In this document: positions 38,335-52,341 of the stretch, piece by piece | How positions within the stretch are numbered: the first letter of the stretch is position 1 | How the letters are laid out: each line of letters opens with the position of its first letter | NCBI RefSeq assembly: GCF_020386635.1 | Contig: NZ_CP081942.1 | Span: forward strand, 4,030,001-4,094,000 | Source of the DNA: Pseudomonas sp. MM211 | GTDB lineage: Bacteria; Pseudomonadota; Gammaproteobacteria; Pseudomonadales; Pseudomonadaceae | Direction: 5' to 3' | DNA: 64,000 nucleotides | Notes under the pieces: generated by a model | The model's input: only the letters and a program-made list of their open reading frames with translations | Told to the model about the DNA's origin: nothing | The model's database searches: none | Translations under genes and position numbers: made by a program

Positions 38335-38363
38335 GACGGCGTTCGAGTGAGTCGAACGCCGTC
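38335..38363. promoter_or_regulatory. Perfect 12-bp-arm palindrome upstream of dctP2
   Basis: GACGGCGTTCGA (38335-38346) pairs with TCGAACGCCGTC (38352-38363). Its core GGCGTTCG-N7-CGAACGCC has the same arms and spacing as the palindromes at 46521 and 52319. It also lies just after the SDR stop codon, so it may double as a terminator hairpin, although no proper T-run follows. Confidence 0.55.
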
Positions 38364-38372
38364 GTGAAGCCC

Positions 38373-39125
38373 CTAAACCACTCGCCCCCCATCCACGGGC
38401 AGCTCCACACCGTTGAGAAATGCAGCTTCATCACTGGCCAGGAACACCGCGACCGCAGCGATATCCGAAGGCTTCGACAGACGCCCGAGGGGAATCGTGG
38501 CGACGAAGCGGGCACGGTTTTCCGGGGTATCCGGCATGCCCATGAAATCTTCCAGCAGGGCCGTTTCGCCCATCACCGGGCAGATATTGTTGACCCGTAT
38601 GCCATCAGGCCCGAGCTCCACGGCGAGGGATTTCGACAGCAGATTGACCGCCCCCTTCGAGCCGTTGTACCAGGTCAGCCCCGGCCGTGGCCGAATACCC
38701 GCGACCGAGCCGACGTTGATGATCGAGCCGTTCTTGCGCTCGCGCATCAGCGGCACCACGGCCTTGACCATGTGGAAGATCGATTTGACGTTGACCGCGA
38801 ATACCCGGTCGAACGTCTTCTCGTCGACATTCATGAGCGGCTGGTTGCGGTGCGTGGTGCCGGCGTTGTTAACCACGATATCGGGAATGCCGAAGGTGTC
38901 CACGCAAAGCTGTACGGCGGCCTGCACCTGCTCGCCATTGGTGACGTCGCAGGTCGCCGCGCAAGCGTTGGGACCGAGTTCCTCAGCCAGACGCTGGGCT
39001 GCCTCGCCATTGATGTCGGCCAGCACGACCTTGGCGCCGGCTTCGATATAGCTGCGCGCGATACCGGCACCAAAACCACTGGCCGCACCGGTGACGATGG
39101 CGATCTTGTTAGTCAGCTGGGGCAT
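38373..39125 (-). CDS. Short-chain dehydrogenase/reductase
   Basis: 250 residues, classical SDR: NAD(P) motif [12 protein letters not shown] (about 13-24), NNAG, catalytic Ser in INVGSVAGI and Y..K in WYNGSKGAV, and C-terminal PVDGG. ADIN after beta-2 (Asp) suggests NAD(H) preference. It is the last gene of the run Liv-ALDH-ADH-SDR. Likely oxidises an alcohol or hydroxy acid; the substrate is unknown. Confidence 0.87.
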
Positions 39126-39212
39126 TTTTGTTTCCCTCTCAGTGCATGAACTGCGCGGCCCACAGCGGCGCCGCACTCGATAATGGGTAGAAACCTGGCC
39201 GGAGCCGGTTAT

Positions 39213-40337
39213 TCAAAAAACGATCAGGTCACGCAGCCCACTGCCACTGGCCAATCGGTCGAAGCCGGCATTGATATCGTCGAGCTTGAGCTTTTCGCCG
39301 ATCAAGCGGTTCACCGGCAGCTTGCCGGCCCGGTAAAGCCCCACGTAGCGCGGGATGTCGCGAGCGGGTATGCAGGAGCCGATGTAACTGCCCTTGATCG
39401 TCCGTTCCTCGGCGGTCAGCGACAGCTGCTGCAACGGCCACTGATCGTTTGGGTGGGGCAGCCCGGCGGTCACCGTGGTGCCGCCACGTCGGGTAGCGGC
39501 GTAAGCCAGCTGCATCGCCGGCACCGAACCGGCGAACTCAAAGGCGTAGTCGACACCGCCCTTGGTCAGTTCGCGAATGCGTGCCACGGCATCGGCATCC
39601 CGCGCATTCACCACATGGGTCGCGCCCAGCGCCAGAGCCAGGTCGAGCTTGCTGTCATGCACGTCCACCGCCACGATCGGGTTGGCGCCCGCCGCCAGCG
39701 CACCAAGCAAGGCGCTGAGGCCTACGCCCCCCAAACCGACGATCAGCGCTGACGCGCCGGGACGAACCTGGCCGGTATTGACCACCGCGCCGACGCCGGT
39801 AAGCACCGCGCAGCCGAACACAGCCGCCTCGACCGGATCAATATCGTCGCCAATCGGGATGCACGAGCGGGCGGAAACCACCGCGTACTCGGAGAATGCC
39901 GAGACGCCGCAATGGTGATTGACCGTCGCCCCGGCCTGGCTCAGGCGATGCCCGCCCTGCAGCAGCTCGCCCTTGCCATTGGCGCCATTGCCGGGTTCGC
40001 AGAGTGCTGGGCGGCCCTCCATGCAGGGCGAGCAGTGACCACAGCTGGGCACGAAGACCAACGCGACTTTCTGCCCGGGGCGTACGTTGTCGACGCCGGA
40101 ACCGACTTCGACCACCTCGCCGCTGGCTTCATGCCCAAGGGCCATGGGCAGCGGGCGCGGACGAACGCCGGTGATGACCGACAGATCGGAATGGCAGAGG
40201 CCGGCGGCAATCATCTTCACCAGCACCTCGCCCGGCCCAGGCGGGGCCAGTTCGAGTTCGCTGATAACCAGCGGCTTGCTGTCCGCGAAAGGGCCTTCGG
40301 CGACCATTTCACGGAGTACGGCGGAGCGGATTTTCAT
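39213..40337 (-). CDS. Zinc-dependent alcohol dehydrogenase (MDR, class III-like)
   Basis: 374 residues. Catalytic zinc ligands CHSD and GHEASGEV, structural zinc loop CGHCSPCMEGRPALC (four Cys present), NAD motif GLGGVGLSALLGAL and following VDVHDSKLDLA (Asp, NAD-specific). Sequence style resembles class III or benzyl/aryl alcohol dehydrogenases. Lies between ALDH and SDR genes, consistent with alcohol to aldehyde to acid. Confidence 0.9.
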   Translation of the reverse strand: MKIRSAVLREMVAEGPFADSKPLVISELELAPPGPGEVLVKMIAAGLCHSDLSVITGVRPRPLPMALGHEASGEVVEVGSGVDNVRPGQKVALVFVPSCGHCSPCMEGRPALCEPGNGANGKGELLQGGHRLSQAGATVNHHCGVSAFSEYAVVSARSCIPIGDDIDPVEAAVFGCAVLTGVGAVVNTGQVRPGASALIVGLGGVGLSALLGALAAGANPIVAVDVHDSKLDLALALGATHVVNARDADAVARIRELTKGGVDYAFEFAGSVPAMQLAYAATRRGGTTVTAGLPHPNDQWPLQQLSLTAEERTIKGSYIGSCIPARDIPRYVGLYRAGKLPVNRLIGEKLKLDDINAGFDRLASGSGLRDLIVF

Positions 40338-51354: not shown

Positions 51355-51411
51355 CTCGATTCCTCGATTCTTCTTGTTGTACGCCAAGCGCAGGGGGATC
51401 AATGGCGCTGG

Positions 51412-52239
51412 TCAGTCGAATTCCAAGTCGGCCTGCTGGGCCATGCCGGCTTCATTACCGGCCCACAGCTGCGCCTTGCCCGGAGCGCTGACGCGCCCGG
51501 CCACCTCGAAGGGCTCTGGCGCAACCAGCGGGCGCAGGCCGCGATAGGCGAAACGACGCAAACGGGCCTGCGGGTTGGCGCGGCAGAACGCGCGCAGGTT
51601 CAGGGTGGCGATCAGCGGGCCGTGCACCACCAACCCGGCATAGCCTTCGGTGTCGGTGACATAGGGCCAGTCGTAATGAATGCGGTGGCCGTTGAAGGTC
51701 ACCGCGCTGTAGCGAAACAGCAGTGTCGGGCTGGGCACCACGCCTTCGCGCCAGTCACCGCTCGGCAGCGCCTCGCCAGCGCCGCTCTTGGGCGGGCTGG
51801 GCTCGCGGTAGACGATGTCCTGCTCCTCGCGGATCGCCAGCTCGCCGTCCTGCAGGTAATCGTGCTGCACGGTGACGAACAGCAGCGCGCCAGTGCGGCC
51901 GTGCTTTTCTTCGATGTGCTTGATGGTCGACACGCGGGTGGCCTCTGCGCCGACCCGCAGCGTGGCGATGAACTCGACGCGACCGCCCGCCCACATACGG
52001 TTGCGGTTGTCGGCCGGCGGCAGAAAGCCACCGCGTGCCGGGTGACCGTCACCCCCCAGGCCGCTTTCGGCGATGGGGCCCTGGAAGAACGCCCAGTGCC
52101 AGAGCGGCGGCAAGGCTTCGCCGTGAGCGGGCGTGTCTTCGCCCAGGGTCGCGGCGATGCGCTTGACCAGGTTGCGGCTCAGTTGATCGTGGGATTCTTC
52201 GGTGCGGCCGATCCAGGCGGAAAAAGCAGAGTCGCTCAT
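51412..52239 (-). CDS. ich: Itaconyl-CoA hydratase (MaoC-like hot-dog protein)
   Basis: 275 residues. Two hot-dog regions: an N-terminal lid region (PLWHWAFFQGP, GFLPPADNRNRMWAGGRVEF) and a C-terminal hydratase-2 motif (FRYSAVTFNGHRIHYDWPYVTDTEGYAGLVVHGPL) containing the likely catalytic Asp/His. Hydrates itaconyl-CoA to citramalyl-CoA. First gene of the minus-strand itaconate operon (PA0878 position), divergent from its LysR gene. Confidence 0.9.
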   Translation of the reverse strand: MSDSAFSAWIGRTEESHDQLSRNLVKRIAATLGEDTPAHGEALPPLWHWAFFQGPIAESGLGGDGHPARGGFLPPADNRNRMWAGGRVEFIATLRVGAEATRVSTIKHIEEKHGRTGALLFVTVQHDYLQDGELAIREEQDIVYREPSPPKSGAGEALPSGDWREGVVPSPTLLFRYSAVTFNGHRIHYDWPYVTDTEGYAGLVVHGPLIATLNLRAFCRANPQARLRRFAYRGLRPLVAPEPFEVAGRVSAPGKAQLWAGNEAGMAQQADLEFD

Positions 52240-52318
52240 GGTGGGTTCCAGCTGTCTTTTTATGTGCGACCAGCATGCAATCCACTTATCGTTCTGTGAA
52301 TTTGCATTTGCATAAACC

Positions 52319-52341
52319 GGCGTTCGGTTATGCTGAACACC
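52319..52341. promoter_or_regulatory. LysR-type palindrome in the ich/LysR divergent promoter
   Basis: Core GTTCGGTTATGCTGAAC (52323-52337 inner arms TTCG..TGAA) with T-N11-A spacing, extended to GGCGTTC..GAACACC. It lies 27 bases upstream of the LysR start and about 80-100 bases upstream of ich. The stretch between it and ich (52261-52318) is A/T-rich and contains TTTGCATTTGCAT, a likely secondary site or promoter. Confidence 0.7.

Follow-up and report, generated by a model that had tools for sequence, protein, structure and literature searches.

Does the LysR-type regulator encoded beside an itaconate operon also control two further units, one for transport and oxidation and one for transport alone? 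The question is raised by a 64,000-nucleotide stretch of the Pseudomonas sp. MM211 chromosome (contig NZ_CP081942.1, positions 4,030,001 to 4,094,000; the window), in which lysR is divergent from an operon for the CoA-dependent breakdown of itaconate, ich-acd-prpD-ict-ccl. On the same strand as this operon lie livKHMGF-ALDH-ADH-SDR, encoding an ATP-binding cassette (ABC) importer, an aldehyde dehydrogenase (ALDH), an alcohol dehydrogenase (ADH) and a short-chain dehydrogenase (SDR), and dctP2, encoding the substrate-binding protein of a tripartite ATP-independent periplasmic (TRAP) transporter (Table 1). A preliminary description, made from the DNA alone, saw similar palindromes ahead of all three units and suggested that the itaconate LysR also controls the TRAP binding protein and the ABC-importer/dehydrogenase operon. 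Directly observed are the three sites, with their architecture, genomic uniqueness and conservation, and the linkage of the genes; together these suggest that one ItcR-type LysR very probably controls the three units through one type of promoter.

Three palindromes and a composite promoter

The three 23-mers stand where the preliminary description had put them, in the lysR-ich divergent promoter (site 3), upstream of livK (site 2) and upstream of dctP2 (site 1). Pattern searches covered both strands of the 5,281,862-bp chromosome, with the backward pattern as a control. The pattern GGCGTTC-N9-GAACRCC has three exact places genome-wide, every one inside 14 kb of the window. Many equal matches in unrelated places had been named beforehand as the result that would speak against a dedicated operator, and the genome has no exact match besides these three. 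At up to two mismatches it holds 225 strand-wise matches against 112 for the backward control, so that weaker or diverged sites, with two or more mismatches, are not resolvable by pattern. The idea that one regulator binds many places finds no further exact site in the genome; a diverged site with at least two mismatches could exist.

When the pattern is enriched to GCGTTCGGNTANRCTGAACGC, the genome matches at up to one mismatch are sites 2 and 3 alone, and the backward control has none at up to three. Site 1 falls outside the genome matches of this pattern even at three mismatches. Between sites 2 and 3 the 23 positions hold three differences (12, 14 and 21) rather than the four that had been counted; across 51 bp extending into the promoter the two are 71% alike. 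The interior of site 1 is unlike the others, being a perfect palindrome with 12-bp arms and without the conserved TA centre. All three sites contain TTC-N9-GAA and hence the T-N11-A geometry which, together with a recognition position near -65, is the classical rule for LysR-type regulators.

Alignment of the site regions with those of relatives led to the recognition of a composite element, GTTC-N9-GAAC-N20-ATTC. Its exact matches in the genome are sites 1 to 3, all on the minus strand, compared with about 0.25 expected from base composition and none in 9.6 Mb of dinucleotide-shuffled window. One mismatch adds 21 further genome places, four of which are one repeated sequence, and the backward control has six places at up to one mismatch. 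At each of the three sites the TTC of the ATTC, read as a -35 box, is followed after 17 bp by a NANNNT -10 box. The palindrome centre is 30 bp ahead of the predicted -35 box, which places it near -65 of the predicted transcription start. On the lysR side of the divergent promoter, the operator lies 30-46 bp ahead of the lysR start codon.

The sites were also scored with a matrix built from 52 distinct maoC (ich) sites of other species, excluding the ten loci nearest the window. The 77 extracted ich sites omit L026 and L031, which carry a TTT variant, and L066, which has no maoC in its locus. In the window, site 3 scores 40.0 bits, site 2 19.2 bits and site 1 8.4 bits, and the next-best place scores -8.6 bits; the lowest training site has 28.6 bits. 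Site 1 is the least typical of the three.

Conservation in related loci and the dctP promoter

The related loci are the best 80 of 388 LysR matches in genome contigs, with LysR proteins 82-98% identical to that of the window, and are labelled Pseudomonas or Stutzerimonas, bar one gammaproteobacterial metagenome-assembled genome. In 73 of these loci ccl and dctP were both found; they are separated by 46-374 bp (approximate ends) and follow a lysR divergent from the maoC operon. TTC-N9-GAA lies inside the lysR-maoC gap of 77 of the 79 loci that have both genes and is one base off in the other two. At up to one mismatch, the composite stands before maoC in 79 of 80 loci (77 exact; L066 is cut off before maoC) and before dctP in 49 of 74 (39 exact). 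With the element also before livK in all five Liv clusters viewed (below), the suggested control of the TRAP and ABC-importer units by the itaconate LysR gains support from comparison. The ccl-dctP gaps of the 73 loci with both genes contain a palindrome with at least 12 of 14 arm positions in 38 cases, where shuffles predict 0.06.

The spacing of the element is well kept. For N lengths between 12 and 29, exact composites on the minus strand of the loci numbered 117 at N20, 21 at N13, one at N19 and none at the others, the N13 matches being a second ATTC of the P. fluorescens-type dctP promoter; the plus strand gave 0-3 at each length. A 17-bp spacer leads to NANNNT in 70 of the 74 distinct maoC sites, in 37 of the 49 sites before dctP and in all four before livK; any other spacer from 14 to 20 does so in at most 18, three and none of them, respectively. 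A chance origin of the sites is rejected by their uniqueness in the genome, the controls, the shuffles and the conservation in relatives. A terminator reading of sites 2 and 3 is rejected as well, as no T run follows and the folds have z values of -0.2 and -1.7.

Beyond these loci, the GCGTTC form of the composite is present in 80 of 298 genomes of a genus sample and its backward control in three of 298, a count that takes matches regardless of neighbouring genes and includes several that look like chance matches in coding sequence (e.g. G302, G336, G204). Where a genome has two matches, these are 5.5-6.2 kb apart on one strand in 39 of 43 cases, as expected from the distance of the maoC/dctP promoter pair. 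The element provides a precise promoter definition for the putative itaconate/methylsuccinate LysR in the genomes that carry it.

Some observations weigh against common control. Site 1, without the TA centre, scores far under the lowest ich training site; the dctP sites of relatives are likewise more symmetric and without it. Directly past the SDR stop codon, moreover, site 1 forms a strong hairpin when folded as RNA (-24.7 kcal/mol, z -4.7). Among the related loci, 25 of 74 dctP genes have no element, 24 of them cluster-linked and one (L066) with dctP on the other side of lysR. The ccl gap is at most 109 bp in 23 of these 24 loci, where dctP may simply be the next gene after ccl. Finally, 13 composite matches at up to one mismatch in the loci are not before ich, dctP or livK, several being the same palindromes on the opposite strand.

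Site 1 might then be a terminator or other RNA hairpin closing the Liv/ADH/ALDH/SDR operon, leaving sites 2 and 3 as the LysR sites. The long perfect arms with a 5-nt loop, the position about 10 nt past the SDR stop codon, the fold z value and an interior that differs from that of site 3 would all fit a hairpin. No T run follows, however, which makes a terminator unlikely, and site 1 has its ATTC at exactly N20 and its NANNNT at exactly 17, like sites 2 and 3. In relatives the distance from the element to dctP is kept, with 37 of 49 within 50-79 nt (ATTC end to dctP match start), while the ccl-dctP gap of loci with the element ranges from 72 to 374 bp (approximate ends). P. seleniipraecipitans also carries this site (L109). 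The hairpin explanation is distinctly unlikely on this evidence, and site 1 as a LysR operator is preferred. The TRAP gene is indicated to have its own regulated promoter, beyond read-through from ccl alone.

The Liv operon and its linkage to itaconate genes

The operon downstream of site 2 encodes a complete HAAT-type importer, with a Peripla_BP_6 binding protein, two permeases and two ATPases. The Liv proteins fall under the cut-offs of the NCBIfam urea and leucine equivalogs. LivK is rare, and at E <= 1e-120 it is found in two of 194 relatives and three of 398 genus genomes (own genome counted in both). Five Pseudomonas Liv neighbourhoods were viewed, those of the window, G115 and G338 coming from the LivK search and those of L024 and L057 being fetched through lysR. 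All five adjoin the itaconate operon, in three arrangements. The window and P. seleniipraecipitans (L024) have Liv-ALDH-ADH-SDR between ccl and dctP, and P. viridiflava (L057) and G115 (L106) have Liv-ALDH-SDR-ADH on the opposite side of lysR. In G338, Liv-ALDH-SDR-ADH-ALDH is followed by lysR and the itaconate operon, with no dctP. The element precedes livK in all of them, exactly in the window and L024, with one mismatch in L057 and L106 and with two in G338. P. seleniipraecipitans and G115 have all three sites, as does the window.

The linkage is tempered by the way the clusters were found, since fetching two of the five through lysR favours it. A protein search also lists LivK relatives in Herbaspirillum and in more named Pseudomonas, among them P. 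matsuisoli (87% alike), P. corrugata and P. asiatica, outside the five viewed neighbourhoods. Outside the family, 398 genomes of a phylum sample yielded three Liv clusters, for which 20 kb was fetched. L120 has ALDH and SDR and no itaconate genes in its 20 kb, and L118 has neither ALDH/SDR nor itaconate genes in its 20 kb. In L119, Liv-ALDH, with ADH 2.6 kb further, is divergent from caiB-acd-maoC.

The liv site could also be an ancestral operator of the ccl-dctP gap that merely happened to survive the insertion of foreign DNA, with Liv functionally unconnected to itaconate. Among relatives that lack Liv, the nearest do have a palindrome between ccl and dctP, exactly where the Liv block of the window sits, and the clusters of L118 and L120 are unlinked to itaconate genes. 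Yet Liv is on the other side of lysR in L057 and L106 and in a third place in G338, each with its own copy of the element. Both non-own genus genomes from the LivK search have Liv beside the itaconate operon, and even outside the family the Liv-ALDH cluster of L119, with ADH nearby, adjoins caiB-acd-maoC. A chance insertion is unlikely in view of these arrangements, and joint control of the Liv and itaconate operons is the preferred explanation.

Most likely the Liv operon supplies itaconate/methylsuccinate breakdown with a precursor that is an alcohol or an aldehyde. Its genes would act upstream of that pathway, importing a branched C5 compound (alcohol, aldehyde or hydroxy acid) and oxidising it to itaconate or methylsuccinate; the linkage, the shared element and the enzyme types are what point to a C5 dicarboxylate as its product. 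A more specific proposal, tentative and on balance doubtful, is that Liv/ALDH/ADH/SDR is an undescribed peripheral pathway. Its importer would bring in a branched C5 alcohol or aldehyde, or a hydroxy acid derived from a lactone, for ADH and ALDH to convert to itaconate or methylsuccinate; the product would both induce and feed the linked pathway, and the operator would move with the operon. Candidate substrates, chosen from chemistry alone, are 4-hydroxy-2-methylenebutanoate (tuliposide A/tulipalin A, plant defence) and 2-methyl-1,4-butanediol with its hydroxy acids. For the tulipalin candidate, no lactonase or esterase is seen among the Liv operon genes, and no linking paper was found in a search of the open-licence literature. 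Tying this rare transporter/dehydrogenase operon to a known pathway means that its substrate can be sought among molecules two oxidation steps from itaconate or methylsuccinate.

The ccl genes of the window and L024 are 86% alike, and the window ccl is at most 72% alike to those of other loci. The neighbouring caiB shares 92-96% with its counterparts in the ten nearest loci. These identities suggest that the window ccl is a replacement, which may have come with the Liv block. In P. syringae GAW0119 (L096, ~11011-12900), lysR is accompanied by ADH and SDR only, which may be what is left of a Liv module.

Regulator, proposed mechanism and related systems

The LysR protein has both the N-terminal HTH_1 domain and the LysR_substrate domain, and its gene is divergent from ich with the operator in the shared promoter. 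The element might instead be the target of another LysR paralogue or another factor, with its adjacency to lysR incidental. Other LysR proteins are encoded in the genome, one of them in the window at ~27875-29371, and the assignment comes from sequence rather than from in vitro binding. Such an arrangement is highly improbable, however, as the element lies within lysR's own divergent promoter in 79 of 80 loci, and the divergent promoter is the usual place of LysR autoregulation. A further argument for the adjacent LysR comes from G338, whose operator and DNA-binding domain diverge together.

The LysR of G338 is 71% identical to that of the window. Its operators, in the livK and maoC promoters (L107, L114), have lost the same inner C/G pair (GTTT..TAAC, GTTA..AAAC) and retain the N20 length, TTC at the -35 box and a spacer of 17 bp; the maoC site has CTTC instead of ATTC. 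Eight of the first 66 positions of this LysR differ although they are invariant in the other 80, including positions 29 and 36 in the DNA-binding domain. Residue 36 is Ala in 80 of 80 loci and Val in G338; seven other invariant residues differ too, so this remains a one-genome lead. Regulator and operators appear to diverge together, which in a single genome is a lead and not proof of co-evolution. With a diverged regulator and two likewise diverged operators, G338 offers a natural test of LysR-operator co-evolution.

The LysR of the window would be the dedicated regulator of the three minus-strand units. In each, a palindrome about 65 bp before the predicted start would be accompanied by an activation site, the ATTC overlapping the -35 box. 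The signal bound by LysR would be a C5-dicarboxylate, itaconate or a relative. Upon binding, the tetramer formed by LysR would change its position in the -35 half of the site, and three functions would be turned on at once: TRAP-type uptake, ABC import with the linked dehydrogenases, and CoA-dependent breakdown. The same operator before lysR would let LysR restrain its own gene. We infer LysR binding, activation, the ligand (itaconate) and the substrate from these features. By analogy with other LysR promoters, a recognition site near -65 together with an ATTC overlapping the -35 box speaks here for activation rather than repression.

LysR operators of such geometry, itaconate clusters and a predicted separate TRAP transcription are known already. 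Searches of the open-licence literature turned up no ItcR operator in Pseudomonas, no such composite promoter and no co-regulated Liv/ADH/ALDH module in itaconate metabolism.

The closest known system is the itaconate cluster PA0877-PA0886 of P. aeruginosa, with ItcR and IctPQM (PMC8526614, PMC9875883, PMC12599236). The window lacks the ring-cleaving dioxygenase gene that lies between acd and prpD in P. aeruginosa, having a 10-bp gap there. It also differs in that dctP has no dctQM and in the Liv/ALDH/ADH/SDR operon between ccl and dctP. In P. aeruginosa a LysR gene likewise stands beside ich, acyl-CoA dehydrogenase, MmgE/PrpD, ict and ccl genes, followed by a TRAP transporter; dctP2 matches the IctP structure 9ht3 with 520 bits. 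PA0878-PA0886 has been predicted as one operon (PMC9875883) and as two, with PA0884-0886 apart (PMC8526614). The two-operon prediction is favoured because a putative separate LysR-type promoter is found here before dctP. The P. aeruginosa TRAP genes PA0884-0886 are described as expressed similarly to the itaconate genes (PMC8526614); this and the prediction of a separate operon agree with a promoter specific to the TRAP genes and controlled in the same way. The PA0878-0886 cluster is reported to handle itaconate, methylsuccinate, (S)-citramalate and mesaconate (PMC9875883), and acd and MmgE/PrpD are assigned to methylsuccinate use in a related report (PMC12290011).

The latter describes methylsuccinate/itaconate clusters of soil pseudomonads and Cupriavidus, which resemble the window in having an MmgE/PrpD methylsuccinate isomerase and an acyl-CoA dehydrogenase with ict, ich and ccl (PMC12290011). 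An ABC importer or alcohol dehydrogenase module is not mentioned in the portions available, and the words LysR, regulator, promoter and alcohol dehydrogenase are absent from its main text. The ItcR-Pccl system of Yersinia pseudotuberculosis also has a LysR-type protein that lies opposite the itaconate operon and responds to itaconate, and is described as a repressor relieved by itaconate (PMC11275114). RipR of Salmonella is a LysR-type itaconate regulator as well, and its regulatory domain is reported to have bound isocitrate rather than itaconate by calorimetry (PMC9637912). The ligand and the sign of control are therefore not directly transferable from these systems to the window LysR.

Two gene assignments sit less easily with the proposed pathway. 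The ccl product is under the cut-off of the curated RipC/Ccl model (NCBIfam NF038242, 160 vs 375 bits), a model that may not cover this ccl branch. For dctP2 the best solved structure is DctP (9dsy, 555 bits), above IctP. At the alignment position taken for IctP 234, dctP2 has Ile, as do 72 of 74 locus dctP proteins; the L066 dctP has Leu, and L064 is not among the residues read. This diagnostic position is Val in IctP and Leu in DctP (PMC12599236). It may be that dctP2 works with the DctQM of a different system, and the window itself contains a full dctPQM set at 24127-27957, 10-14 kb from dctP2. By exact string search, at least 29 of the 74 loci have a DctM of one sequence type after dctP; dctP2 is without it. 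The ich product has no NCBIfam match. Every NCBIfam match of ict is under cut-off, and ict is a class III CoA-transferase by Pfam, which does not imply a substrate.

Table 1. Operators, predicted promoters and genes of the three units and their putative regulator (window positions)
Feature	Position	Strand	Basis
Site 3, putative LysR operator in the lysR/itaconyl-CoA hydratase divergent promoter	52319..52341; GTTC-N9-GAAC core 52322-52338	-	Pattern; element in 79/80 related loci
Site 2, putative operator upstream of livK	46521..46543; core 46524-46540	-	Pattern; element also before livK in relatives
Site 1, putative operator upstream of dctP	38338..38360; core 38341-38357	-	Pattern; also in P. 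seleniipraecipitans (L109)
Predicted itaconate operon promoter	52272..52300; -35 TTCACA 52295-52300, 17-bp spacer, -10 CATGCT 52272-52277	-	NANNNT at spacer 17 in 70/74 distinct related sites
Predicted liv promoter	46474..46502; -35 TTCTGA 46497-46502, 17-bp spacer, -10 CAACCT 46474-46479	-	Box pattern
Predicted dctP promoter	38291..38319; -35 TTCTCC 38314-38319, 17-bp spacer, -10 CACTCT 38291-38296	-	Box pattern
LysR-type regulator, ItcR type by position	52368..53264	+	Pfam PF00126 (HTH_1) and PF03466 (LysR_substrate)
MaoC-like itaconyl-CoA hydratase (ich)	51412..52239	-	508 bits, 275/275 residues, to PDB 8khg 'Itaconyl-CoA hydratase'; Pfam PF13452
Acyl-CoA dehydrogenase (acd); putative methylsuccinyl-CoA dehydrogenase	50191..51402	-	Family match; analogy with PMC9875883, PMC12290011
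MmgE/PrpD protein (prpD); putative methylsuccinate isomerase	48828..50180	-	Family match; analogy with PMC12290011
Class III CoA-transferase (ict)	47544..48749	-	PF02515, 337 bits
CitE/HpcH-type lyase; putative (S)-citramalyl-CoA lyase (ccl) by synteny	46572..47390	-	348 bits to PDB 8khl 'Probable acyl-CoA lyase beta chain'
livK-like ABC substrate-binding protein (Peripla_BP_6)	45112..46416	-	Family matches
livH	44213-45109	-	Family matches
livM	43269-44213	-	Family matches
livG	42532-43272	-	Family matches
livF	41804-42520	-	Family matches
Aldehyde dehydrogenase	40374..41807	-	Family matches; 645 bits to 4ywe
Zinc alcohol dehydrogenase	39213..40337	-	Family matches
Short-chain dehydrogenase	38373..39176	-	Family matches
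dctP2, DctP/IctP-type TRAP substrate-binding protein without adjacent dctQM	37207..38208	-	Start by homology 38208; listed open reading frame from 38220

Two other features lie close to these genes. A 24-nt inverted repeat (92%, TGGGCT...AGCCCA) is located between ccl and caiB at 47438-47498, outside the operators. Directly after lysR there is a FecI/FecR pair, followed by an IS110-type transposase (53327-56070).

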